Positions 42,701 to 61,300 of a stretch of DNA of 64,000 nucleotides are shown here, piece after piece; position 1 is the first letter of the stretch, and the number at the start of each line of letters is the position of its first letter. The position numbers and the translations under genes are program-made. Source of the DNA: Larus michahellis (taxonomy: Eukaryota > Chordata > Aves > Charadriiformes > Laridae); the NCBI RefSeq assembly GCF_964199755.1, contig NC_133910.1:7090501-7154500 (forward strand), given 5' to 3'. Under the pieces are notes generated by a model. That model saw nothing but the letters and a program-made list of their open reading frames with translations, was not told where the DNA came from and searched no databases.

Positions 42701-45700
42701 TTTTCTGTTCATTTGTTAATGATGATAATAAGTCGTGCAGAGCCAAGGTGCTGATGGGACATCCCGAAAGAGCTGCTGGGACCCTGAAGACCCACACTCA
42801 GGTCCAGCAAGAGACGCTGTGTTAGCAGAGCAATGCTTGAATCACAGCCCTAGACCAAGAAGCGTTTGCTTGCATCAGGGCATGTTCAGGTTCTGACAAT
42901 CACAATTACCGTCTTTTTCATCCCACACTAGCAACAAGATGGCTTTGGGGCAGCTTTCCGGACGATAATCGACTCGAACACCGCGCTCAAGACAGAGGTA
43001 CGAGGGTACTTTTGAACTCGCTGGTCTTTGCTGGAGCTGGAGGCTGGGAATGGTCATGGTGTCCCTTGTTCTTTCTGTGTGCTTTAAGTTCGTACTCACA
43101 AAGCTCTGATTTGTCACTGTTCTCGTGGAATAACTGGGGTTTATGCATGCAAAGATCCAGTTAAAGGATGTGGTTCTGTTGTGTTACTCGTTTGTGGAGC
43201 TTCAGACTTTGCCCTCATGGCTTTGCCAGCACTTCAGAGATGTCCCATTCAGGACAGCGCGAGCGCTGTAGCTCGCGTGATCCCAGCCAGCACAGCCTGT
43301 CCTTGGCCCACTGAGTTTGCCCACAGATAAACCTGAAACCCTTATGGTAACAGCACCCGGTGCCCCAAGGCACACCTGACTTTCCCTCCTTTTCTCTTCA
43401 GGGTTACCAACATCCAGACCTTCTCATGCTGGACCACGGAGGGGAGATCTTTAAGACCCTACACTACCTCAGCAACCTCATTCAGAGCATCAAAAGACCC
43501 CTGGGAACCAAGGAAAACCCTGCACGCATCTGTCGAGACCTCATGAACTGTGAACAGAAGATGAACGATGGTAAGAAGCCTCCATAGGGCCATTTCATAT
43601 GGCCCAAACAGGTCTCCTTCCCTGGGACCAATAATGCAGAAATCAAAACTTTCCTTTTCTCTTTCACAGAAAAGTCTGTGTCCTTGTTAATCCTTGAATT
43701 TTTTCATTTCTTCAGGTACCTACTGGATTGACCCAAATCTTGGCTGTTCCTCGGACACCATACAGGTCATCTGTAACTTCACCAACGGTGGGCAGACGTG
43801 TCTCAACCCCATCACCGTCTCCAAGGTACACGCAGATCGACCCCAGCATAGCATTTCCCATACTACGATTACAAAATATTTACCCAGGGTTGTGTTGTCC
43901 AGAGACACTGGGTGGTGACCACACAGCACGCTGGTTTCTCCGCGAAGCAGAGTTAGTGTAGCAGTGACCTTGAGAACTGCTCTCACGCAGTTAAAAAATA
44001 TACCTAAGACTGTTATTGACTCTTTTCGAGACAAAGCAGTACATTTCCAGCAATGATTAATTAACCCATAACCTTAACAGAGGCCAGTAATTTTGCAAAC
44101 ACGCTGCTCCCAAGTGCTTTGTTGAATTAACTTATGTTCAGGTCACTCCGGCATATTGTTTTCTGCCTGCTGAAAAAGTCAGGTCAGCTTAAATATACAA
44201 GTTTCCAGGGAAGTTAATGCTACAGGATTTTTCTTGAGGAAGGACCGGTACCAAAAATACCAATAACAATATCTGGGTTCATCTGCAGATGAACTAGAAC
44301 CTGCTGCTTTGCAGAAGTGCATATTCTGCATAGGAAGTTCCACCTCAATGTGAGGAGGCACTTCTTTGCTGTGAGGGTGGCAGAGCCCTGGCACAGGCTG
44401 CCCAGAGAGGTGGGGGAGTCTCCATCTCTGGAGACATTCCAAACCCGCCTGGACGCGTTCCTGTGCCACCTGCTCTGGGTGACCCTGCTCTGGCAGGGGG
44501 TTGGACTGGGTGATCTCCAGAGGTCCCTTCCAACCCTATGATTCTATGATTGTATTCAAAGTTGACTTTATTTTCTTTCTACTTAAGGACCTGCCAGTTT
44601 GTTCTGAAAAATACAGGCCCTGCTGTGTCCCCATGAAAAATTTCCAGATTGGTTTGCCATCTGGCCCTTATGCCCACGCTGATGCCAGACCCGGTTCTGA
44701 GCTCAGACATCCACGCGTGGCCACCTCCAGGCTTTAGCAGAGTAGAGGGACCACCTTTGCTGTCACATCCTGCGCTAACCCTGCCACCAGCTCCCTCCAG
44801 CCCCGCGACAGGGGGTTCCCCCTAATGTCTCTGTCACCTCCACAGCTGGATTTTGACATCGGTAGAGTCCAGATGAACTTCCTCCGCCTCCTGAGCTCAG
44901 AGGTGGTGCAGCACATCACCATCCACTGCCTGAACACCTCCGTCTGGCGGGAAGGCTCAGCCGAGAAACCTTCAGAAAAAGCCGTGCGCTTCAAGGCCTG
45001 GAACGGGCAGATGTTTGAGGCAGACGGGCAGCTCAGGCCAGAAGTGGCAGCTGATGATTGCAAGGTACGTTGCTGCGAAAGAGGGGAAAGGTGGAGAGAA
45101 ATGCCAGGCTGAACCCACTCAGGGTGCACGACAAGGCTCGAGTGATACCTCTGCTTCTTATTCTCCCAAAAAAAAGGGGGAGAAGGGTCTAATTTACCTG
45201 TTCACCACTTGTATTTTCCAGTCCGGGGTGATGTAGCAGCTCCTGTTAAGTAGATGACCTTCAAAAATTAAATTCCAAAGTGTCATGTCACGTGTAGCAG
45301 CAGGTGAATGGCAGAAGGGGGAATTGTCACCCGAAGGCGGTGGCCTCGGCCCCTGCCTGACGCCAGCCTGAGTCGGTAGCCGTGTGTCTGCACTTCGGGC
45401 GCACCGCATGAGGGAATTGTGTTTGCTGATGCCGTTGCAAGCTCGGTTTCCATCAACTCAACCTGGATGAAGGTTCCCCAAAATGCTTCCTAAGCCTCAC
45501 CCCAGCCCTGCTCAGCCCAAAGGGCAGCCCCTTGTCTCGCACAAGCCTTTTCAAGCTTACACCTCGTGAAACGCTTTCCTTCCCAGCAGGATTCGCCCCC
45601 CAGTTAAACAGCTTTTTCTGTCTTTCCCTCCCTCTGTCTTCCACAGATCAAGGATGGACGCTGGCATCGGACTCTCTTCTCCTTTCGGACGCAGGACCCT

Positions 45701-45793
45701 CAGCAGCTGCCAATTGTCAACATCTACAACCTTCCCCCATCCGAGCCAGGAAAGCAGTATCACCTCGAGGTCGGCCCCGTCTGCTTCCTTTGA
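706..45793 (+). CDS. COL27A1: Collagen type XXVII alpha-1 chain, C-terminal part (32 coding exons, 5' end outside the window)
   Basis: This gene encodes a fibrillar procollagen of cartilage and other extracellular matrix, known to assemble as a homotrimer. Seen: 27 in-frame exons encode an almost unbroken Gly-X-Y helix, each starting with a glycine codon; one exon encodes the helix-propeptide junction; four exons encode the COLF1 C-propeptide ending in VGPVCFL and a stop at 45791-45793. The coding bases sum to 2334, or 777 residues plus stop, against about 1860 for the full human chain. The C-propeptide follows human COL27A1 closely as I remember it ([46 protein letters not shown]). All eight COLF1 cysteines are present (ICRD, NCEQ, GCSS, ICNF, TCLN, HCLN, DCK, VCFL). 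Other fibrillar chains fit less well because COL27A1 alone shares these C-propeptide strings and the single GKVE-type helix break. The downstream ORM genes match human 9q32 synteny. The span includes introns; exons are listed separately. Confidence 0.96.
920..964 (+). CDS. COL27A1: COL27A1 helix exon, 45 bp
   Basis: Encodes [15 protein letters not shown], five triplets, between a cacag acceptor and a gtaagt donor. The intron before it is only 169 bp. Confidence 0.92.
1189..1242 (+). CDS. COL27A1: COL27A1 helix exon, 54 bp, with GC donor
   Basis: Encodes [18 protein letters not shown] after a tctag acceptor. The frame and the 54-bp unit put the 3' border at CCG|gcaagt, a GC-AG type donor. The only nearby GT (1247-1248) would give a 58-bp exon and break the frame. 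Confidence 0.88.
2047..2100 (+). CDS. COL27A1: COL27A1 helix exon, 54 bp
   Basis: Encodes [18 protein letters not shown] between tttcag and gtaggt. Six triplets, rich in Pro and Gln. Confidence 0.93.
4412..4465 (+). CDS. COL27A1: COL27A1 helix exon, 54 bp
   Basis: Encodes [18 protein letters not shown]. The acceptor follows a run of about 17 T, and the donor is gtaaga. Confidence 0.93.
6112..6165 (+). CDS. COL27A1: COL27A1 helix exon, 54 bp
   Basis: Encodes [18 protein letters not shown] between ttgtag and gtaagt. Confidence 0.93.
6944..6997 (+). CDS. COL27A1: COL27A1 helix exon, 54 bp
   Basis: Encodes [18 protein letters not shown] between ttgtag and gtaaac. Confidence 0.93.
8491..8598 (+). 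CDS. COL27A1: COL27A1 helix exon, 108 bp, highly charged
   Basis: Twelve perfect triplets. It begins [18 protein letters not shown] and ends [12 protein letters not shown], with a dense Lys/Glu stretch in the first two thirds. Bordered by ccacag and gtgagt. It looks like two fused 54-bp units and is followed by the 14.2-kb intron. Confidence 0.94.
9066..9209. repeat. Long (T)nC polypyrimidine tract
   Basis: About 144 bases made almost only of T runs of 3-9 separated by single C. Low-complexity DNA that can slip in replication and may form triplex. The Lys/Glu/Arg-rich reading frame on the opposite strand is a by-product. Confidence 0.95.
11193..11218. repeat. Perfect 26-bp palindrome
   Basis: The arm GATACAAATCCCT is followed at once by its exact reverse complement, with no spacer. 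It is centred between 11205 and 11206. Confidence 0.97.
12488..12611. repeat. 31-bp minisatellite, about four copies
   Basis: A unit containing CTGGAGCACCTTCATCAG recurs at 12502, 12533, 12564 and 12595 with a constant 31-bp step. Units differ mainly at TGTGCTGG versus TGCACTGG. Confidence 0.95.
22820..22873 (+). CDS. COL27A1: COL27A1 helix exon, 54 bp
   Basis: Encodes [18 protein letters not shown] between cctag and gtagga. Lysine-rich, like the preceding 108-bp exon. Confidence 0.93.
22995..23102 (+). CDS. COL27A1: COL27A1 helix exon, 108 bp
   Basis: Twelve triplets. It begins [15 protein letters not shown] and ends [12 protein letters not shown], between ctgcag and gtgaga. Only 121 bp separate it from the previous exon. 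Confidence 0.94.
23103..24587 (+). other. COL27A1: COL27A1 intron
   Basis: 1485 bp with no exon or repeat family recognised. Confidence 0.65.
24588..24641 (+). CDS. COL27A1: COL27A1 helix exon, 54 bp
   Basis: Encodes [18 protein letters not shown] between ctccag and gtaagg. Confidence 0.93.
24954..25007 (+). CDS. COL27A1: COL27A1 helix exon, 54 bp
   Basis: Encodes [18 protein letters not shown] between ccacag and gtaagt. The GGACCACCAGGGCCA block is repeated inside the exon. Confidence 0.93.
25549..25649. promoter_or_regulatory. Cluster of three AP-1/MARE sites, candidate intronic enhancer
   Basis: TGAGTCA lies at 25549-25555, the complete 13-bp MARE palindrome TGCTGAGTCAGCA at 25602-25614, and TGACTCA at 25643-25649, all within 101 bp. 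The local sequence is richer in G+C and CpG than the rest of the intron. These are consensus sites for FOS/JUN and for MAF/NFE2 dimers. Enhancer activity is an inference from site clustering only. Confidence 0.45.
25992..26078 (-). mobile_element. CR1 LINE 3' fragment
   Basis: Reads atcatagaatcatagaac, then gagttggaagggacct and the ccctgccctgggcagggacacc block. This is the reverse complement of the bird CR1 3' end. Confidence 0.93.
30048..30104 (+). CDS. COL27A1: COL27A1 helix exon, 57 bp, with triple-helix interruption
   Basis: Encodes [19 protein letters not shown], 19 residues. A four-residue step (GKVE) breaks the Gly-X-Y register and explains the odd 57-bp length. As I remember it, human COL27A1 has the matching break GKAE; short helix imperfections are a known trait of collagens XXIV and XXVII. 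Bordered by tcacag and gtaaga. Confidence 0.93.
30263..30316 (+). CDS. COL27A1: COL27A1 helix exon, 54 bp
   Basis: Encodes [18 protein letters not shown], identical to the human segment as I remember it. Bordered by tgtag and gtgagt. Confidence 0.94.
31277..31330 (+). CDS. COL27A1: COL27A1 helix exon, 54 bp
   Basis: Encodes [18 protein letters not shown] between a tttaag acceptor and a gtaaga donor. Confidence 0.93.
32233..32286 (+). CDS. COL27A1: COL27A1 helix exon, 54 bp
   Basis: Encodes [18 protein letters not shown] between ttgtag and gtaggt. Confidence 0.93.
33843..33896 (+). CDS. COL27A1: COL27A1 helix exon, 54 bp
   Basis: Encodes [18 protein letters not shown] between ttgcag and gtaggt. 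Confidence 0.93.
33972..34079 (+). CDS. COL27A1: COL27A1 helix exon, 108 bp
   Basis: Twelve triplets, starting [15 protein letters not shown] and ending [12 protein letters not shown], between tttag and gtgagt. The preceding intron is only 75 bp. Confidence 0.94.
34459..34566 (+). CDS. COL27A1: COL27A1 helix exon, 108 bp
   Basis: Twelve triplets, starting [15 protein letters not shown] and ending [12 protein letters not shown], between tctag and gtgagt. The start repeats the GEQGDD motif of the exon at 30048. Confidence 0.94.
34702..34754. repeat. (ATCC)n microsatellite
   Basis: About 12 tetranucleotide units of ATCC with a few ACCC variants. Confidence 0.93.
36035..36142 (+). CDS. COL27A1: COL27A1 helix exon, 108 bp
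   Basis: Twelve triplets, starting [15 protein letters not shown] and ending [12 protein letters not shown]. The acceptor is tttag and the donor is the less common gttagt. It contains a GSSGGM step in which a triplet begins with two glycines. Confidence 0.93.
36371..36503 (+). mobile_element. CR1 LINE 3' fragment
   Basis: Contains ggggctttgagcaacctg and gtctagtgggaggtgtcc, then ggtcccttccagctc, and ends attctatgattctgcgat. Typical CR1 3' end in sense. Confidence 0.93.
38583..38640 (+). mobile_element. Eroded CR1 3' remnant
   Basis: The string gttccttctagcctgatg followed by tttgtgtaattc resembles the last 50 bases of older CR1 copies. Too short and diverged to be sure. Confidence 0.4.
38814..38867 (+). 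CDS. COL27A1: COL27A1 helix exon, 54 bp
   Basis: Encodes [18 protein letters not shown] between ttgcag and gtaaga. Close to human (GFPGMAGLFGPK). Confidence 0.94.
39461..39523 (+). CDS. COL27A1: COL27A1 helix exon, 63 bp
   Basis: Seven triplets, starting [15 protein letters not shown] and ending GPPGLM, between ttgcag and gtgagt. The 63-bp size is a 54-bp unit plus three codons. Confidence 0.94.
40003..40056 (+). CDS. COL27A1: COL27A1 helix exon, 54 bp
   Basis: Encodes [18 protein letters not shown] between tctag and gtaagt. Confidence 0.94.
40778..40813 (+). CDS. COL27A1: COL27A1 helix exon, 36 bp
   Basis: Encodes [12 protein letters not shown] between gacag and gtaagt. Four triplets. Confidence 0.93.
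40960..41012. repeat. Alternating purine-pyrimidine (CA/TG) stretch
   Basis: An imperfect run of acacatgtgtgcacacacg-like units. Alternating purine-pyrimidine DNA of this kind can adopt Z-form. Confidence 0.75.
41895..41912 (+). CDS. COL27A1: COL27A1 helix microexon, 18 bp
   Basis: Encodes only GLQGPR, between ccag and gtaagt. The flanks supply strong splice signals: a run of T and C of about 45 bases precedes the acceptor. The peptide matches the GLQGPR that precedes GPPGPRG in human COL27A1, which supports a real microexon. Confidence 0.9.
42296..42331 (+). CDS. COL27A1: COL27A1 helix exon, 36 bp
   Basis: Encodes [12 protein letters not shown] between tttag and gtacgt. Confidence 0.93.
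42663..42689 (+). CDS. COL27A1: COL27A1 helix-end exon, 27 bp
   Basis: Encodes GPPGIPASF between tctag and gtaagt. The last two Gly-X-Y triplets are here; the ASF that follows leaves the triple helix. Confidence 0.9.
42932..42997 (+). CDS. COL27A1: COL27A1 helix/C-propeptide junction exon, 66 bp
   Basis: Encodes [12 protein letters not shown] followed by [10 protein letters not shown], with no triplet repeat. It matches the human QQDDLGAAFQ segment in position and kind. Procollagen C-proteinase (BMP1 family) normally cuts before an Asp in this linker, so the Asp here is a candidate site (inference). Bordered by ctag and gtacga. Confidence 0.9.
43402..43570 (+). CDS. COL27A1: COL27A1 C-propeptide exon 1 of 4 (169 bp)
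   Basis: Start of the COLF1 domain, from GYQHPDLL to MNDG, with two cysteines (ICRD, NCEQ). It contains [19 protein letters not shown], the short alpha-helical region of the trimerising propeptide. Ends in phase 1 at gtaaga. Confidence 0.97.
43716..43825 (+). CDS. COL27A1: COL27A1 C-propeptide exon 2 of 4 (110 bp)
   Basis: From [10 protein letters not shown] to PITVSK, with three cysteines (GCSS, ICNF, TCLN). WIDPNLGC is the calcium-binding loop region of fibrillar C-propeptides. NFT is an N-glycosylation sequon. The acceptor is ttcag in phase 1; the donor is gtacac. Confidence 0.97.
44325..44553 (+). mobile_element. CR1 LINE 3' fragment
   Basis: Contains gttccacctcaatgtgagga, ggcacaggctgcccagagag and ggtcccttccaaccc, and ends attctatgattg. 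About 230 bp, sense, in the intron before the third C-propeptide exon. Confidence 0.95.
44846..45064 (+). CDS. COL27A1: COL27A1 C-propeptide exon 3 of 4 (219 bp)
   Basis: From [13 protein letters not shown] to AADDCK, with two cysteines (HCLN, DCK). NTS in HCLNTSVW is a sequon. Bordered by cacag and gtacgt, 73 whole codons. Confidence 0.97.
45647..45793 (+). CDS. COL27A1: COL27A1 last coding exon with stop
   Basis: From [20 protein letters not shown] to GPVCFL, then TGA at 45791-45793. Ending at VCFL is standard for fibrillar procollagens; the eighth cysteine is four residues from the end. The acceptor is ccacag, and the exon continues into the 3'UTR. Confidence 0.97.
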
Positions 45794-49594: not shown

Positions 49595-50066
49595 ATCATA
49601 GAATCATAGCCTGGTTTGGGTTGGACGGGACAGTTGGAGGGACCTTTAAATGCCCCTGCCCTGGGCAGGGACACCCCCCACCAGCCCAGGTTGCTCCAAG
49701 CCCCGTCCAACCTGGCCTTGAACCCCTCCAGGGATGGGGCAGCCACAGCTTCTCTGGGCAACCTGGGCCAGGGGCTCACCACCCTCAGAGTGAAAAATTT
49801 CTTCCTAATACCCAATCTAAATCTCCCCTCTTTCAGTTTAAAACCGCTGCCCCTCGTCCCATGGCTCCCCTCCCTGATCCAGAGTCCCTCCCCATTTTTC
49901 CTGGAGCCCCTTTAGGGACTGGAAGGGGCTCTAAGGTCTCCCCGGAGCCTTCTCTTCTCCAGGCTGAACCCCCCAACTCTCTCAGCCTGTCCCCACAGCA
50001 GAGGGGCTCCAGCGCTCTGACCATTCCTGCAGCCTCCTCTGGCCCCACTCCCACTGCAGACCCGTG
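49595..50066 (-). mobile_element. Long CR1 LINE 3' fragment
   Basis: Starts atcatagaatcatagcctgg and runs through gggcagggacacccccca, ttcttcctaatacccaat and ctgtccccacagcagagg. This is the reverse complement of about 470 bp of the CR1 3' end. Confidence 0.93.
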
Positions 50067-50577: not shown

Positions 50578-50585
50578 TATATAAG
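50578..50585 (+). promoter_or_regulatory. TATA box of the first ORM gene
   Basis: TATATAAG lies 58 bases before the ATG, which suggests a transcription start near 50610 and a 5'UTR of about 30-35 bases. A C/EBP-like ATTGCAAAT at 50355-50363 lies some 250 bp upstream; C/EBP control is known for mammalian ORM genes, but use of this site is inferred. Confidence 0.75.
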
Positions 50586-50642: not shown

Positions 50643-50753
50643 ATGCTGGCTGCCCTCGCCCTCCTCCTGGGGCTGCCGCTCGCCCTCACCGCCGACCCCC
50701 CCGGCTGCGCCCCGCTCCTCACCGTCACCCTCGACAATGCCACCGTCCCTGGG
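50643..50753 (+). CDS. ORM1: ORM exon 1 (coding part, 111 bp)
   Basis: Encodes the signal peptide and the mature N-terminus DPPGCAPLLTVTLDNATVPG. The donor is gtaagc, phase 0. This ATG is the first after the TATA box in frame with a signal peptide. Confidence 0.92.
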
Positions 50754-52832
50754 GTAAGCCCTGCCCTCAGCCGGGCGCCCGTCCTCGCCTTTTCTACCAG
50801 CACCATGAGCCGTTACGGGGCCGGGAACGGGTTATGAACCCCATGGGCCGCTCAACGCTTATCTCACTGCCTGGCCATGCTTATTTTCCTAAAAAAAAAT
50901 CAAGGCTGCTGCACAGGAGCATGGGGACAGGGCAAAGCCTTGCAGCTCTGCACCCATAAACTCACGAGCAAACGCTTTGGGGGGGCTCCTGCTTCCATCC
51001 CCCCATGCAAACCGGGCTGGGCAGCACCGGCCCCAGTGCTTCGCCGCTCTCTTTTAAGTCCTTCAAGTGACGGGGACTCGGGTCACGAGTCGCCATCCGC
51101 AAAAACCCTTCACTGCATAAACAGTATTTAGTCCCTCGGGGATGTTTAGTGGGAGGAAAGCAACGAGAGCCGGGCACAGAGCGGGCGGGACAGGACCGCG
51201 GAAGCAAACTGGCCATCCCGGAGCTGGGGCATCGCCTTTGTGGGGAGGGGGCAAAGCCAAGAGCCCCTCACCCGGCCTGGATCCTGCCCGGGACGGTCAC
51301 CTACCGGGTTGCTGGTGGCCATGGGTGAACCCAGCACGGCCCCCCCAACCCTTCCCCGCTCCCCACCTCTCCGCAGCTCCTGGGACAGTGGATCTACATC
51401 GCCGGCGCCTCCAGGTACGAGCCTCACCTGGCAGAGCTGAGGGCTGTGAAACACGCGGTTTTTTCCTTCTCTCCCGGCAGCCACGAGGACGAGCTCAACG
51501 TCACCGAAATCATGAGACTGTAAGGACGGGGATTCACCCCCTCATCCCGCTCCCCCCAACCCCAGGGACATTTCCACCCACCGACACCATCCTCCGGGCT
51601 GAGACACCCCACAGATTTGGGGCTGGAGAGCAGCTGTGACAAATTTATTTAAGCTCATCAGCTCGGCTCCAGTTCTGAACCCTCGGGTTTGGTTGGGGCA
51701 GTTTTGGGGAGCGGGAGGGTTGCCCCGTCTGACCTCTCTGCCCCGCAGGAACGAGACGTGCGTGGTGAGGAACACCAGCAAGATCCTCATCTTTTGGCAC
51801 AACTCCACCCTGGCACATGGTAAAGCCCCGGCGGCGGCGTGGGGGTGGGATGGGGAGGGCACTGCACCCGCACCTTGCACCCTCCCGCTTCTACCCCTGC
51901 TATTTGGCATCCCGAGCCCCCGTCATGAGGCCATTTTACACCTCACAACATGCCTGCAACTGAGGGGGAAAGTTTCCCACAGACTGGTCCCCACTGGGAT
52001 GGGTCTCCCACGGTGAGGGGGGTGAGCAGCCCCCGCCGCGCTGCCGGCTCTGCCCGGGCTGAGCCCCGGCATGGGGAGACGCTTGCCAACGGGGGACCCC
52101 CCTCTCCCCGTGCCTTCCAGTCGATGACCAGATCTTTTCCACGGCCAAACTGATCCAAAACGACAAGGACCTGCTGATCATGAAGCATCTCAACCCCAGC
52201 TCCCCAGGTCTGAGCCTCTCGGGTAAGTGGATGCTGCGCGGATCCGCAGGGCACGTCCCTGCCCAGGGACGCTTCGATGGGCACCGGCATCCCCAGGCCT
52301 CGCAGGCAGGCAAAAAGCCTCTTTTCCCCCCAGTACAGAGAGGGGAAAGATGGGGGCGGGCAGGCAGCGAGCTCCCCATCCACACCACGGGGACCACCAG
52401 GGAGCGAAGAACTCCCTAAAATTCCCTTTTCCCCCCCCTCTCCGCCCATTCTCCTTTTACCGCCCCATTTCTCCATCAGCGCGGACGCCCAACGTGACCA
52501 AGGAGCAGATGGAGGAGTTCAAAGCCCACCTGCACTGCCTGGGCCTCACCGAGGAGGACGTGTTCTTCACCTCCGAAAAGGTCCGAAGCCCTCCCCAGGG
52601 CAGGAGAGCCCCAGCAGGGGCCAGCTCCTGCCGCCGGCTGGGATGGGGGTCCCGGGGGGGTGGAGGATCTGTTTCCCCCCACAGTCCCTCTCCTCCCTGG
52701 CTGATCCTGGCTCTTGGGGCGGTTTTGGGGCAAGGGGACACCGACGTCCACTCTCCCCCTCTCCCGCAGGACGCCTGTCCCCTGCCCGGGGAGAAGACGG
52801 GGGAAGACGACACGGAGCCGCGGTCGGGGTAA
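50643..52832 (+). CDS. ORM1: Orosomucoid (alpha-1-acid glycoprotein), six exons, 196 aa
   Basis: A secreted plasma lipocalin of the acute-phase response that binds small hydrophobic and basic ligands; the chicken homologue is also the ovoglycoprotein of egg white. Exons: 50643-50753, 51377-51519, 51749-51819, 52121-52222, 52480-52580 and 52770-52832, with intron phases 0, 2, 1, 1, 0 and 591 coding bases. Residues 1-17 form a signal peptide (MLAALALLLGLPLALTA). GQW at 40-42 is the lipocalin GxW motif. Cysteines C22, C89, C162 and C179 sit where human ORM has C23, C90, C165 and C183, so the disulfides C22-C162 and C89-C179 are expected. Six sequons (NAT, NVT, NET, NTS, NST, NVT) predict heavy N-glycosylation. 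The TATA box and AATAAA (53002-53007) frame a complete unit. The symbol follows synteny; one-to-one orthology with mammalian ORM1 or ORM2 is not implied. Confidence 0.93.
51377..51519 (+). CDS. ORM1: ORM exon 2 (143 bp)
   Basis: Begins LLGQWIYIAGASRYEP with the lipocalin GxW motif and ends NVTEIMR plus two bases of the next codon. The acceptor is cgcag; the donor gtaagg overlaps a would-be TAA stop, so the exon must end here. Confidence 0.92.
51749..51819 (+). CDS. ORM1: ORM exon 3 (71 bp)
   Basis: Encodes NETCVVRNTSKILIFWHNST and LAH. It contains C89 and three sequons in 23 residues. The donor is gtaaag, phase 1. Confidence 0.92.
52121..52222 (+). CDS. ORM1: ORM exon 4 (102 bp)
   Basis: Encodes VDDQIFSTAKLIQNDKDLLI followed by MKHLNPSSPGLSLS, the central beta strands. 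The acceptor is tccag and the donor gtaagt, phase 1. Confidence 0.92.
52480..52580 (+). CDS. ORM1: ORM exon 5 (101 bp)
   Basis: Encodes the C-terminal alpha helix (TKEQMEEFKAHLHCLGL) with C162, then TEEDVFFTSEK. The acceptor is atcag; the donor gtccga is weaker than the rest. Confidence 0.9.
52770..52832 (+). CDS. ORM1: ORM exon 6 (coding part, 63 bp)
   Basis: Encodes DACPLPGEKTGEDDTEPRSG and TAA. It carries C179 and an acidic tail, as in mammalian ORM. Confidence 0.9.
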   Translation, partial: DACPLPGEKTGEDDTEPRSG

Positions 52833-54169: not shown

Positions 54170-54280
54170 ATGGCCAGTGCCGGGGTGGTCACCGCCGTCC
54201 TCGGCCTCGCTGCGCTGCTGCTGCCCACCGCCGCCATCCCCTGCCCAGCCCCGCGCCCCACCAACACCACGGCATCCAAG
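54170..54280 (+). CDS. ORM-like gene 2, exon 1 (111 bp)
   Basis: Signal peptide followed by AIPCPAPRPTNTTASK. Same length and phase as exon 1 of the first gene. The donor is gtagga. CCATGG forms a good start context. Confidence 0.78.
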
Positions 54281-57200
54281 GTAGGAGACACCCGAGCCCC
54301 GGGGATGCCCCACTCCTGCCGCGAGTTTGTGGGTGCTCTGCTGAGCCTCACCACCCCCTGGGGAAGGGGGGACCCTCCCTCGCCCCCCCAGCACATCCAC
54401 CGAGGCGCCCTCACAAAAAACAAGCAGGACGCGTTTGCTTTCCAAAACACCTCAAATCTCTCAATTTTCGCATGGTCCCCCAGCAAGTCCCAGAGGTGAC
54501 CTCAAAAGAAGGGGGGGGGGGGGGGGGGGCGCTATTTTTTGGTGCAACTTCCCCGCGGGAGCAGAGGGCTGTCCTGGCCCCTCACCGCACAGGGGCACCC
54601 GCAGCCAACGCCGCACCAGTTCCCAATGCCCACATTCAGCTCTTTCCCCCCCCGGGCATTCGCACAGGTTTCATTGTGTTGCTGCTGGCGCGGCGCAAGA
54701 GGGAAAACTAGCAGAGGACAGAGGTCAAAAGGAGTGATTTTTCCAATGGGAGGGTGCAAACCTCTTCCCCAAAGTTCCCCCTGCGGCCCCCAAGGCTCTC
54801 ACTGCCCTGTCCCTCTCTCCCCGCAGCTGCTGGGGACGTGGCTGTACGTGGCCGGGGCCGCCCAGTTGCCCCAGCACCTCCTGGAGATGCTGCTCATCGA
54901 CCACGGCCACCTCCATGTGGAGCCCGGCGCCGGCGAGCAGGAGCTGCGCGTCACCCAGCATGTGGCCGTGTAAGGAGCAGCCCTCGGGTCCCCAAACCAT
55001 CTCCTCCCACGCGCCGCAGCCCCCGCAACGCCCGACACCAGCGCGGTTTCAGACTGGTTTTCCCAAGGAGAGAGTCCCTCCTGGCTGCTCCATGCATGAT
55101 CTCCCCTCCCCTCCTCACCCCTTCTTTTACTTAGTTATTTCAGCAGCCCCCAGGTTCAGGCAAATTTTGCAGGGCACAGAGGTCTTGCAGGCACCGAGGT
55201 CTTGCAGGCACCAAGCCCTGCAGGCGTGGAGGATGCAGGACAAAGGCAAGGAGAAGACCTCTCCAGAGGAGAGGTCCTCTCCAGAGGTTCCTGCACCGCG
55301 GCTGCTGACCCCGCCAGGCACCAAAAGCCGTTTTTTTCCCCCCCAGGGTCAGGCTTTAAGAATTTTTCTGTGCCGACACCAGCAGCTCTTTGGCAGCTTC
55401 GGTTATTTCGGGGTGGAAAAACATCTCGCCATCAAGGAGCCGGGGCAAGGGCAAGGCTGAGAGCAGGAGCTGCAGGTGGAGGTCAGGCAGACGCACGGGA
55501 GAAATGGCTTAATTATAACAGTGAGAGCAATTAATTAACCCTGCGGAGGAGCTGGTGGGTGCCCGTGCAGGGCCGGGGCTTTGTTGGTCCTTTCCAGCCC
55601 GTGGCAGGGGGTCTCTGCTCCCCTTCCCCTCTCTCTCTCCAGGGGGGACCAGTGTCTCACCAACAACTCCACCTACTTCGAGATCACCGCCGGTAACGCC
55701 ACGCTGGTGAAACATGGTGAGGAGCACCGCTGGGCGCAGCCGTCAGGTTTATCATCACCCAGACCATTTTTTAGAGGGGCTGAGACAGGCAAAGGGTCCA
55801 CGGCCATGTTTTACATCTGACATATTTTATTCCCAGGTCATTTTGTCCATTAGAAGCCAAGATTTGATGCCAAGGCCAGGTTGGACAGGGCTTTGAGCAA
55901 CCCGGTCTAGTGGGAGGTGTCCCTGCCCAGGGCAGGGGCTGGGACTGGATGATCTTTAATGTCCCTTCCCACCCAAACCTTTCTACGGTTCTATAATAAT
56001 GTTTGGTGGACTCCAAACAGCTCCCCAGGGCTGGGGGCACCCCGGTCCGGCCCCGCTCCCGGGGGTTGCGGCCCCGCCATTAAGCCACACTAAACCCAAC
56101 ATCGTGCCAGGAGCAAGGAGCAAACCCGCTCCCACCCCCGCAGGAGAAGACCGCCTCCTGCCTCACCTGTAAAGTTATTTCACAATCCCGTGGGGAAAGG
56201 AGGGGAACATTTGTGGCAGGTTTCAGTGAATTAATGAAGCCTCGCCTTCTGAATTGTTTCCTCCTCCTCGCTGAGGAAGGGAGGTGAGCGTCGCAAATTC
56301 CCTGAGGCAGCCTTTGCACTGACGCAGCCCAGACGGCATTGCTGCGGGCAGGGGACAGTTTCCCCCTGTTTTTGCAGGAGGTGGGGGGGCTGGGGGCCGG
56401 GCAGCCTCGCTGGCACCCCGAGACCAACCATCCCCCCGGCACATCGCTGCGGCAGGACAGGAGCTGGGCGGCTTCGGCTCCTTCACAGCCCAGCACACGC
56501 TTAGGAAATACCATTCAAATAAACCCAGAGCCAAACAGCTCACCCCACGTCAGGACATTTGTCCTCCCCACTGCTGAGGGATGGCTCCCAGGGCTTTGTA
56601 GCCATAGGACGAGGGGCAATGGCTTTTAACTAGAGCAGGGCAGGTTTAGATGAGACATGAGGAAGAAGTTCTTTACACTGAGGGTGGTGAGACACTGGCC
56701 CAGGTTGCCCAGAGAGGGGGTGGAGGCCCCATCCCTGGAGACATCCAAGGCCAGGCTGGATGAGGCTCTGAGCAACCTGATCTAGTTGAAGATGTCCCTG
56801 CTGACTGCAGGGGGTGGGACTAGATGGCCTTTGAAGGTCCCTTCCAACCCAACACGTTCTATGGTTCTATGCATTGCCTATACCCAGGCTGCGGTTTATC
56901 GCTGCTGCAGCACCAAAAAGCTGAATATTGTGTCTGTTCCCCACCCCCATTCTGTTCTCTCAAAGCCAAGACCCACCAAACCCTGGGGACGCTGGTGAAC
57001 CTCAGCTCTGAAGACGTTTTACTCATCCAGCACGAACTGCAGAGGGAAAGGACGTATTTGGGACTGTATCTCTACGGTAGGCAAACTCCATCCTAAAGTA
57101 ATTTAAAGCTACCACGGGACACCAAAATATGCGCGTAAAATTACCAGCTACAGCCACACAGCAACTTGGTTTCACCAACAGTCAGTGATTTTCCCGAGAC

Positions 57201-58144
57201 TCCAGGGGTCACAGGAGTATTTACAAATCCCATTAAAACCTAAATCTCTTGGCAAGAGCAGAAAGACCGAGTTAAAGGCAAAACCCACTTAAGGCCATAA
57301 ACGTTCAAAGAACAGGAAGCAAATACAGTTCAGCATCGATAGCATCATAAATTCATCATATTTTTCAAGCCAACCATGATTTTTCGGTATTTACCTCCCA
57401 GGGCAGAGCACGTGGCTTTGCAGTGCCGGCACAGGCACGGCTGATCGCATCTACCACAAGCCCATAAAGCAGCATTTTAGACCTTGATAAGGCTTCCCAC
57501 TGCCCTCCCGAGCTGTAAAGCAGTTGCTTAAGAGAGTTTGAAGACGCATCCAGAAAACTGCCTCCATACTCGGCCTCGGTCCCTCCCGATGCCCCCCAGG
57601 AGCATCAGACTGTCCTTAAAGCAGACAGGACCGGAGCTAACTGGGGAGAGGGTTAAAAAAAGTGATGCCCGAGGTTGTTTTTGTTCAGGTATTCACCACA
57701 GGGGCAAGAGACCCCGGCAGAGATCCGGGATCCGCAGCACGCGATGGTGGGAGCACGGGGCCATGTGGCACCAAAGGCAGGGAGGGGGCACCGGGGGCCG
57801 TGCCGAGGCCACCGAGCCGTGTTTAACGCCTGGCAAACGCTTCTCCGTTTGCAGCCCGGAACCTGAGTGCCGGGACAGCCCGTCGGGAAGAGCTGGAGCA
57901 CCACGCCAGGCGCCTGGGGCTGGGCGAAGAGGAGATGGTGTTCGCCCCGTGGAAAAGGGTGCGTGAGTGGGCAGAGCCCCTGCAGCCCCCCCCCAGCCCC
58001 GGGCAGGGCTGCCAAGGCTGTCACCAAACTGGGGGCTCGGAGAGGGGTTGTCAAGGTGGTGGAAGTGATTGAGGGGACCATGGCTTGCTTCGACAGTGAT
58101 GGTGGCTTAAAATAACAGACTCCCCCCCCCTGCAGATAACGTGA
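54170..58144 (+). CDS. Diverged second orosomucoid-like lipocalin, about 183 aa
   Basis: A tandem paralog of the upstream ORM gene, in the same orientation. Proposed exons: 54170-54280, 54827-54969, 55643-55716, 56966-57076, 57855-57958 and 58136-58144, for 552 coding bases. The intron phases 0, 2, 1, 1, 0 and the lengths of exons 1 and 2 (111 and 143 bp) equal those of the first gene. A signal peptide is visible (MASAGVVTAVLGLAALLLPT). GTW at 40-42 is the GxW motif, and C25 and C89 match the first two ORM cysteines. The third cysteine is replaced by R166, and the short final exon (Ile-Thr-stop) lacks the fourth. An alternative last exon at 58471-58743 would start RPCAPRSC and restore a cysteine but add a 90-residue tail. 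Sequons NTT, NST, NAT, NLS and NLS remain. The open frame over six exons argues for a functional gene, but a young pseudogene is possible. Confidence 0.72.
54511..54529 (+). repeat. Run of 19 G
   Basis: Uninterrupted homopolymer in intron 1 of the second ORM-like gene. It could form G-quadruplex, and its length is prone to sequencing error. Confidence 0.9.
54827..54969 (+). CDS. ORM-like gene 2, exon 2 (143 bp)
   Basis: Starts LLGTWLYVAGAAQLPQHLLE, directly alignable with LLGQWIYIAGAS of the first gene, and ends VTQHVA plus two bases. As in the first gene, the donor gtaagg overlaps an in-frame TAA. Confidence 0.85.
55180..55213 (+). repeat. 17-bp tandem duplication
   Basis: AGGTCTTGCAGGCACC recurs with a 17-bp step in intron 2 of the second ORM-like gene, followed by a partial third copy. 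Confidence 0.8.
55643..55716 (+). CDS. ORM-like gene 2, exon 3 (74 bp)
   Basis: Encodes GDQCLTNNSTYFEITAGNAT and LVKH, with C89. It is one codon longer than in the first gene. The run of G at the acceptor leaves some doubt about the exact border. Confidence 0.78.
55863..55999 (+). mobile_element. CR1 LINE 3' fragment
   Basis: Contains ggctttgagcaacccggtct, gtgggaggtgtccctgccc, gtcccttcccacccaaac and the end ttctacggttctat. Lies in intron 3 of the second ORM-like gene. Confidence 0.92.
56601..56871 (+). mobile_element. CR1 LINE 3' fragment
   Basis: About 270 bp: gaggggcaatggcttttaac, gaagaagttctttacactga, ggcccaggttgcccagagag, ggtcccttccaacccaac and the end ttctatggttctatg. Second CR1 copy in the same intron. 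Confidence 0.94.
56966..57076 (+). CDS. ORM-like gene 2, exon 4 (111 bp)
   Basis: Encodes KTHQTLGTLVNLSSEDVLLI followed by QHELQRERTYLGLYLY. Acceptor ctcaaag, donor gtaggc, phase 1 on both sides. It begins about 95 bp after a CR1 insertion. Confidence 0.72.
57855..57958 (+). CDS. ORM-like gene 2, exon 5 (104 bp)
   Basis: Encodes ARNLSAGTARREELEHHARR and then LGLGEEEMVFAPWKR. It aligns with TKEQMEEFKAHLHCLGLTEEDVFF of the first gene, with Arg in place of the conserved Cys. Acceptor ttgcag, donor gtgcgt. Confidence 0.78.
58136..58144 (+). CDS. ORM-like gene 2, putative exon 6 (Ile-Thr-stop)
   Basis: A C-rich tract and ctgcag lead into ATA ACG TGA in the right phase. It gives a protein ending WKRIT. 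The alternative acceptor at 58469-58470 is equally in phase, so this exon is the least certain of the six. Confidence 0.4.
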   Translation: MT

Positions 58145-58164: not shown

Positions 58165-58352
58165 CACCTGTGAGACACCGGCCCAGGTTGCCCAGGGAAG
58201 TGGTGGAAGCCCCATCCCTGGAGACATCCAAGGCCAGGCTGGATGAGGCTCTGAGCGACCTGATCTAGTTGAAGATGTCCCTGCTGACTGCAGGGGGTGG
58301 GACTAGATGGCCTTTGAAGGTCCCTTCCGACCCAACACCTTCTATGATCTCT
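58165..58352 (+). mobile_element. CR1 LINE 3' fragment
   Basis: Nearly identical over its length to the end of the copy at 56601-56871, including the unusual ctgactgcagggggtgggac block. Lies just after the putative last exon of the second ORM-like gene. Confidence 0.94.
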
Positions 58353-61300
58353 AGTGGAAAACCTGGTAACAGCCTGCCTCCCCTTGGAGAGGGAAGAGAG
58401 CTAAAGTAGAGGGGGTTTGCCCCAAAATTCCTGATTTTTGCCTGAAATACCTCATTTTGCCCCCTAGCAGAGGCCATGTGCCCCCAGGAGCTGCAGCGAG
58501 GGGCAGGAGGGGCTGGTGCCCTGGGGCACTGCCCGGCCCGGCATCAGCCAAAGCCACAACCATTTTGAAGCCTTAAAAACCCAGGCTGTTTTCAGATTGG
58601 GATTTGCTTTTCCGGCAGCCCGAGACACGGGTTCGCAGCCCGGCTGGCTGCAGATGGGACAACAGCACCGGCCTGTCCTCCTCCCCGCCCCGCGCGGGGG
58701 TGTCCAGCACCCGGGCGTCCTTTGGGCCGGGGTCCAGCCCTGAGCTCCCAGCCCCATGGGACATCAGGGAAGAGGCACCACCATCCACTCTCGCAAAACC
58801 AGGCACCTTTTTCCTTAGTTTTTCCATTGAAATGTTAAACAGACCCAGCCCCAACCTCTGCCACCTCATTTAGGACATTTTGTCCTGCAAACGTCCCAGT
58901 CCCCAAGCCAGCGCGATGGGGCTCCCTTTTGCGAAGTGAGGGGTGAAAAAAATACCTCTTTCTGTCTGTCCATTCCTGTCCTGGCTCTTTGCTTGTCCGT
59001 GGCAGGAGACTCTGAGCTTCCAGGGGTGCCCAAAACCCCACTCTGAGCTGCCGGGCCGGACCCAACGTAGCCCCTGACACCCCCCAGCCTCAAGATGCTT
59101 CTTTTAGAACTATCAAGATCCAGGGGAACTGCGAACGGGAACACTGGCTGCAACCCTCCCGGTGGGGCAGGGGCAGGTCTCCTCTCCCCGTTAGGCAACG
59201 GGCAGCACCTGGAGGCAGGGCCCAGCCCCCCCGAAACGAACAGCAGACAGCTGCTGACCCAGGGGGTTGCCAAGGTGTCTGCATCACATTTAAATTTGGG
59301 GAAGATGAGCGAAGTTTAGAGAAAGGCAGGGTGAGGGGAATGAGTCAGAGTTGTTTGTCCTTACAAGGTAGAATTGCCCTTAGCAGAGAAGGGGTTTGTG
59401 CCCAGTTGAGAGGCAGGACACAGTGTCTGAGGGGTGAAATTAAACCAATTAACAAAGATTTTGTCATCATGCTGAAGGAGATGGATGTGAGCAGAACGCC
59501 AAGTCATGTACCCCCGCGACAGCCCAAGGCATTAGCAGAATGTAAACCACGTGAATTCCCAGTGCCTGGGGAGCAGGAGTTTTTTATTTATTCCTCCAAA
59601 AGTTTGAATCCCCCTTTCCTTCAGAGCACAGCTTCAGTGTAGCACAGCTTTGCTCCAGAATCCTGGTTTCTTCTTCATAGCACAGGTGTGGAAAATGGCA
59701 CCAGCAGCAGCTCCAGAGCCAGGCAGGCGGCGTCTGTGCCTGGGGCAGCGTGGGGAAGCCCACAGCTTCTCTAAGTGCTCTTGAGCTTATAGGCAGATAC
59801 AAAGGAAAAGAAAAATACTCCTTTCTTCAGTAAATTCTGACAGCACTGACAGTTCCGCTTATCGCGTTACTGTTGTTTTGGCAGGAGCTGTGTCAAGTGG
59901 AAGAAATGGAGAAAGGGAACAGCCCACGCATAGAGCCCGCGGTCACAGCGTCACCTCCCGGGGGTCCCCAGCAGCCTGGGGGGCGCGGGCGACTGACACC
60001 ACGACAGCAATAAACGCCTTCCTCAAACGCGATGCCTGTTGCGGCCGAGATGCTGGGGGTCTGAGCAGGTCAGAAGTGGGGCCTGCAAAGAGGAACTGAG
60101 CACCCAATTCCCCTTGTGTGCCGTTCCACTAGGAGCTGGGAAGAGTCATCATTAAAGGAAGGAGGGATGCAGGACAGCGTGAGACGTGGAAGTTTTTCCA
60201 GCACTGGCTCAGTCCGCTCAGCCTCACACCAAGCTCCCACAGAGCTCTGGAAAAGGCAGTACTTCAATGAAGCAGTAATAGAGGCTAACCAGAAGAGGGC
60301 AATCATTAACTATTTTAAATGAGTGTCCCAAGCACTTGATGAGTAACAGGAATGTAAAAAAGGCTAGAAACTTATCTTTAACTGTACAGTTTGGAATGCA
60401 AAGGAGGCTGGAAACTTATCTGTAACTGTACAGTTTGAGAGGAAGCGGGTGCTTAGCTAGAAGCAACCCCCCAGCTCTCTTGACGGGAGCTTGGCTGACA
60501 GAAGCGGCCCAGCTGGAGCAGATGTTCCTGCCCAAACCCTGTGGACTGAGCAAGAGCTTCCCGATAATGTTCATCCACGGCAAGGTTTGCAACATAATAT
60601 GACGACACTGAAAAATTATCCTCCTTCCAGAGGGGGAGGGGTGCTAACCCAACCCAAGCTGGATTTTTACTTCCCCAGAAAAAAAGGTCATGTTTCCTCC
60701 TTTCCCAATAAGCTCCCACTAAGGTTCAAATTGATTGACATTGCTCCCCGTGCCCCCGGTACAGCTCATCAGGCACCTCCCACATCCTTCATCACACCCC
60801 CGGCCCCAGGGACGAAAGCGCTGTTGCTCTGTGTTGGTGAGAATGGTGGGGTTTAAAAAGAGACTGCTTTCGCTGCGCGTCTGCAAAGTAACTCAGTCTC
60901 AGCTCTAACCTAGTAATTAAGCACTGAAAATATCTCTCTTCCTTAAAAAGGAAGAAGAGGAGAGAAGCTGGAGGGAATCAGCGAGGAGAGAGCCCTGCTC
61001 CTCCCTCTGCGGCACCAGGGTGCCCTGTCCCTGCACAGCACCATTTTCTGGGCAGCGTTTCAGTGATGAGCCTTTGGCCCAATTCCTGCAGTAAAATTGA
61101 ATTTTGCAAGGTCAAGTACAGCCAATTCCCTCCTGGTCTCAGGGCACAGGTACCTGGCCAGCCCTTGCTTCAGATGCATCTTTATCAGCTTGTGACACAA
61201 AAAAGAAACCCGCCCCAAGAAGTGAGAGAGTTAAAGGGTAGGAGCGGGCAGTGGTGCAAGAGGGGATGCTGCCAGCAGCCTTGAGCGCCGCAGTCCAGAG

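Follow-up and report, generated by a model that had tools for sequence, protein, structure and literature searches.

A divergent second orosomucoid gene in Larus michahellis and the probable loss of one of its two disulfides

Orosomucoid (ORM), or alpha-1-acid glycoprotein (AGP), a carrier protein of blood and egg white, is represented by human ORM1 and ORM2 and by chicken ovoglycoprotein. Human AGPs are stabilized by two disulfides and the human ORM genes contain 5 introns (PMC8217824), and the family is fast-evolving, human ORM1 being listed at 49% identity to mouse (PMC6381713). A duck egg-white AGP-like protein is described as sharing 63% identity with chicken AGP (PMC4957533). Free cysteines are described in two lipocalins: Cys149 of human AGP2 (variant A) is reported to be cysteinylated (PMC11232096) and S-nitrosated (PMC6996401), and alpha-1-microglobulin carries the single disulfide C72–C169 together with a free C34 (PMC11050150). 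In a literature search that left subscription journals mostly outside its scope, no paper matched orosomucoid duplication or an orosomucoid paralog in birds, and no title on a second bird ORM lacking the cysteine was found among the matches listed. Here, two tandem ORM/AGP genes are described in a 64,000-nucleotide stretch of Larus michahellis (NC_133910.1, positions 7,090,501 to 7,154,500; hereafter the window, in whose coordinates all positions are given). Based on sequence comparison, the second of them, gene 2, is interpreted, with a probability of roughly 0.6, as an old and probably functional paralog that keeps the disulfide C89–C184 and has lost the N-terminal AGP disulfide.

Gene structure and family assignment

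Both genes lie on the forward strand, with about 1.3 kb between their coding parts. Gene 1 (50643–52832) is composed of six coding exons (50643–50753, 51377–51519, 51749–51819, 52121–52222, 52480–52580, and 52770–52832), the spliced translation of which has 196 residues with cysteines at positions 22, 89, 162, and 179. It matches human AGP1 in a Protein Data Bank sequence search (E 1.8e-19) and the Pfam Lipocalin family at 30.7 bits (cut-off 23), with ApoM likewise above its cut-off. The first five exons of gene 2 are located at 54170–54280 (hydrophobic N-terminus, C25, and an N-glycosylation sequon at residue 32), 54827–54969 (GxW motif), 55643–55716 (C89 and sequons at 92/93 and 103), 56966–57076 (sequon at 121), and 57855–57958 (sequon at 149 and Arg166). 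The intron phases are 0,2,1,1,0 in both genes, the last of them on the assumption that exon 6 of gene 2 is in phase 0, and GT-AG borders are found at 10/10 introns of the two models.

With the favored sixth exon (59885–60013), the best Protein Data Bank matches of gene 2 are AGP1 (E 3.1e-9) and AGP2 (1.3e-7 and 2.4e-7), and only four distinct sequences are reached at E ≤1, namely three AGP sequences followed by apolipoprotein M at 0.81; in the AGP match, WKRELCQVE of gene 2 is aligned with WKKDKCEPL. The Pfam Lipocalin family (PF00061) is matched at 27.2 bits against a curated cut-off of 23, and ApoM is the second nearest family at 21.1 bits, slightly below its cut-off of 22. The nearest solved relative and the exon structure thus identify gene 2 as an ORM/AGP paralog. 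Pattern searches for its relatives gave 87 matches in prokaryote genomes and 27 in viral contigs, none of which was confirmed, as expected for an animal gene.

The GxW motif takes the form LLGTW and lies at the beginning of exon 2. Six N-X-S/T matches correspond to five separable sequons because those at 92 and 93 overlap, and the most hydrophobic 11-residue stretch of the N-terminus comprises residues 6–16. The first-pass annotation of this DNA had already recognized the tandem pair, the identical intron phases, the fold motif, and the five sequons, all of which are reproduced by the spliced models and the AGP and Pfam matches, although the last phase hinges on the choice of exon 6. The signal peptide that it also proposed has the hydrophobic N-terminus in its favor and is kept as putative.

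Gene 1 and gene 2 are about 30% identical (54/180 residues, or 58/196 in another alignment), and gene 2 shares 38/174 residues with human ORM1. These low identities indicate an old duplication, a fast-evolving gene 2, or both. Over 196 codons, the identity between the two genes at the three codon positions is 0.464/0.526/0.418, compared with 0.282/0.261/0.372 expected from composition; second positions are conserved and third positions are nearly random between the copies. The spliced translation of exons 1–5 runs without stops or frameshifts, and its splice sites are intact. Joined random intron pieces of gene 2 with the same exon lengths were stop-free in 161 of 20,000 draws. The codon pattern and the open frame show long selection on the frame, which is not the same as function today.

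Cysteines and the last exon of gene 2

Exons 1–5 of gene 2 encode two cysteines, C25 and C89. At the position of gene 1 C162 (TGC), gene 2 has Arg166 (CGC), and consequently one of the AGP disulfides cannot form; the two codons differ by one base in a single sequence, and the arginine could therefore also reflect a mistake in the assembly or an uncommon allele. C25 lies three residues closer to the first sequon than does the N-terminal cysteine of the family, and the two are united in a hand alignment by a three-residue gap, so that C25 is likely the homolog of the N-terminal AGP cysteine. The cysteines of chicken AGP were reportedly mapped into disulfides by Matsunaga and others in 2004.

The partner of C89 depends on exon 6. 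Candidate acceptors were scored with a matrix built from 32 sites, consisting of 23 collagen-type sites from an upstream gene together with 5 acceptors from gene 1 and 4 from gene 2; 23 of 33 collagen matches were used, and the 10 lying inside or across another match were left out. The acceptor of the favored exon, 59885–60013, scores 10.71 bits, a value reached by 0.65% of the AGs between 50 and 63.9 kb. The first eight residues of each candidate exon were further compared with exon 6 of human AGP and of gene 1, and this peptide score is 7.5 for 59885, second among 409 downstream AGs to position 57975, which reaches 9.0 but has an acceptor of -7.71 bits. On a combined acceptor and peptide score with our own weighting, 59885 ranks first of the 409. 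Among the 9,701 AGs on the two strands of the window, 33 match or exceed its peptide score, and for 3 of these, 59885 included, the acceptor score is as high as well; exon 6 of gene 1, which is part of the reference, may be another. Against a profile built from ORM1, ORM2, and gene 1, the gene 2 product scores 75.0 bits with no exon 6 and 81.5 (+6.5) with exon 59885, which is the highest of 506 constructs. The third codon of this exon is a cysteine (C184), in agreement with gene 1 and human AGP, and an AATAAA at 60009–60014 overlaps its stop (CAATAAA), which would leave a very short 3′ untranslated region.

A cysteine stands at codon 3 both in 59885 and in a second candidate, 59681, the two possible last exons whose acceptors score highest, and C89 therefore most likely keeps its partner, which is probably C184. 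Since residue 166 is arginine, C25 would then be left free. A C25–C89 disulfide, considered as an alternative pairing, is needless if C184 exists. The first-pass annotation had correctly placed Arg166 opposite C162 and had described C25 and C89 as kept; both residues are present, with the equivalence of C25 read by hand. Its further proposals, that the partner of C89 is missing, which it had made openly conditional on a short exon at 58136, and that both disulfides are gone with C25 and C89 free or joined, are not sustained, because 58136 is the weaker exon and both 59885 and 59681 supply a cysteine. In total, one disulfide is lost, and the second loss is probably a matter of exon choice. Of the suggested secreted lipocalin with a new fold constraint, the secreted-looking ORM-type product with one lost disulfide stands, and the loss of both does not.

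In the favored model, the product may be secreted, may carry N-glycans at as many as five sites, and, judging from the family, may bind small lipophilic ligands in the lipocalin barrel. The core lipocalin disulfide would be kept between C89 and C184 of the C-terminal tail, whereas the link that in AGP joins the N-terminal region to the position of residue 166 would be lost. C25, near the mature N-terminus, could thus act as a free thiol that is cysteine-capped or redox-active, like Cys149 of AGP2 and C34 of alpha-1-microglobulin.

Weighing of alternative interpretations

Several observations weigh against this interpretation. In three alignments, C25 and the N-terminal cysteine of gene 1 or human AGP fall in different columns, and the AGP pairing scheme, which we take to be 23–165 and 90–183 in the human precursor, is itself an assumption. 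The profile margin of exon 59885 is small (81.5 versus 80.7 for the runner-up), and the acceptor at 59681 is almost equal (10.59 versus 10.71 bits). Exon 59885 is the least coding-like of gene 2, with a GC content at third codon positions of 0.58, and its peptide of 42 residues is about twice as long as the 20 residues in gene 1; 42 or more codons are open after 103 of 511 downstream AGs, and the openness of the exon therefore says little. In addition, a TATA-like box is present at 50578 for gene 1, whereas none was found within 200 bases 5′ of the gene 2 ATG.

Gene 2 could also be a recent pseudogene or silent copy that was long selected and is now unexpressed or unconserved. The replacement of a family cysteine by arginine, the missing TATA box, and the uncertainty of exon 6 would fit such a fate, but exons 1–5 are intact, and second codon positions have been held while third positions drifted to near randomness relative to gene 1. 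The first-pass suggestion of an early pseudogene is disfavored by the same intact splice sites, open frame, and codon-position conservation, with a very recent loss as the form that could still be accommodated, and this explanation is considered unlikely. CpG observed/expected is 0.85 upstream of the gene 2 ATG compared with 0.59 for gene 1, and this difference, together with that in the TATA box, hints at different regulation of the two genes.

A more ambitious explanation is that gene 2 represents an ancient, selected second bird ORM, distinct from ovoglycoprotein, whose free N-terminal thiol serves redox, nitric oxide, or copper chemistry. This possibility is rated as rather improbable, and, short of evidence from expression and conservation that selection maintains the thiol, gene 2 counts as an ordinary divergent paralog.

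If the transcript instead ended at the 9-base exon 58136–58144, which encodes two residues, both AGP disulfides would be gone, and C25 and C89 would be free or joined. This exon has a frame that closes immediately in phase 0, and its acceptor is usable in principle: in leave-one-out scoring, the 32 known acceptors span 4.0–19.9 bits and 2 of them (4.0 and 4.0) fall below its 4.75 bits, so that the site is weak, yet not impossible. On the other hand, 4.75 bits is reached by 7.25% of the AGs between 50 and 63.9 kb, the exon raises the profile score by only 0.3 bits (to 75.3), and no AATAAA or ATTAAA occurs before 59439, about 1.3 kb downstream. Furthermore, a repeat copy (58170–58346), 95% identical to another in the gene, starts 26 bases past this exon. 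The short exon is thus disfavored as the end of gene 2 by acceptor strength, the absent poly(A) signal, and the profile score, and this explanation appears highly improbable. The least probable is a functional paralog with another last exon such as 59681–59833, giving four cysteines (25, 89, 184, and 200), since, despite an acceptor of 10.59 bits, a cysteine at codon 3, and a profile score of 80.3, its peptide similarity is 2.5 compared with 7.5 for 59885, and its stop lies 176 bases ahead of the AATAAA at 60009, which is possible but less tidy.

Surrounding sequence and comparison with known lipocalins

A fibrillar collagen gene (706–45790) is located upstream of gene 1. It is represented by 33 Gly-X-Y exon-like matches, partly nested, at 706–42331 and by a C-terminal COLFI domain at about 43712–45790, for which 3/3 pieces match COLFI. 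The human gene order is presumably COL27A1-ORM1-ORM2-AKNA, which the upstream collagen gene would fit if it is COL27A1. Two 177-base repeat copies that are 95% identical (56687–56863 and 58170–58346), a related 109-base piece (55870–55978), and an inverted relative (49653–49866) were observed, and we presume from resemblance that the intron repeats of gene 2 are of the CR1 kind. Shortly after gene 2, a 44-base unit is repeated twice head to tail at 60349–60436 with 89% identity. Intron 1 of gene 2 contains a run of 19 G at 54511–54529, where sequencing or assembly may be less reliable. Rfam at gathering thresholds gave no matches within the window.

If expressed, gene 2 would offer a natural test of the N-terminal AGP disulfide, with neighboring genes with and without it in one genome; otherwise, it is one more case of the divergence usual among these rapidly changing carrier proteins. 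The locus also illustrates that the choice of a last exon can create an apparent loss of conserved residues.

Gene 2 resembles ORM/AGP in its best match, the number and phases of its exons, its sequons, and, in the favored model, its C-terminal cysteine. In contrast to ORM/AGP, Arg166 abolishes one of the two disulfides, a link that is usual in AGP and not taken here as defining, and three fewer residues separate the N-terminal cysteine from the first sequon; gene 2 is also less similar to human ORM1 than gene 1, which shares 55/170 residues with it. Apolipoprotein M, the second nearest Pfam family, gives a much weaker match than AGP. As proposed for C25, human AGP2 has a free cysteine within an AGP; however, that cysteine is extra to two disulfides and lies at mature position 149 rather than at the N-terminus. 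Alpha-1-microglobulin, a different lipocalin, likewise combines one disulfide with one free thiol. Given these two precedents, a free thiol in the lipocalin fold is no new principle, and gene 2 is a modest new addition to the known ORM/lipocalin family.
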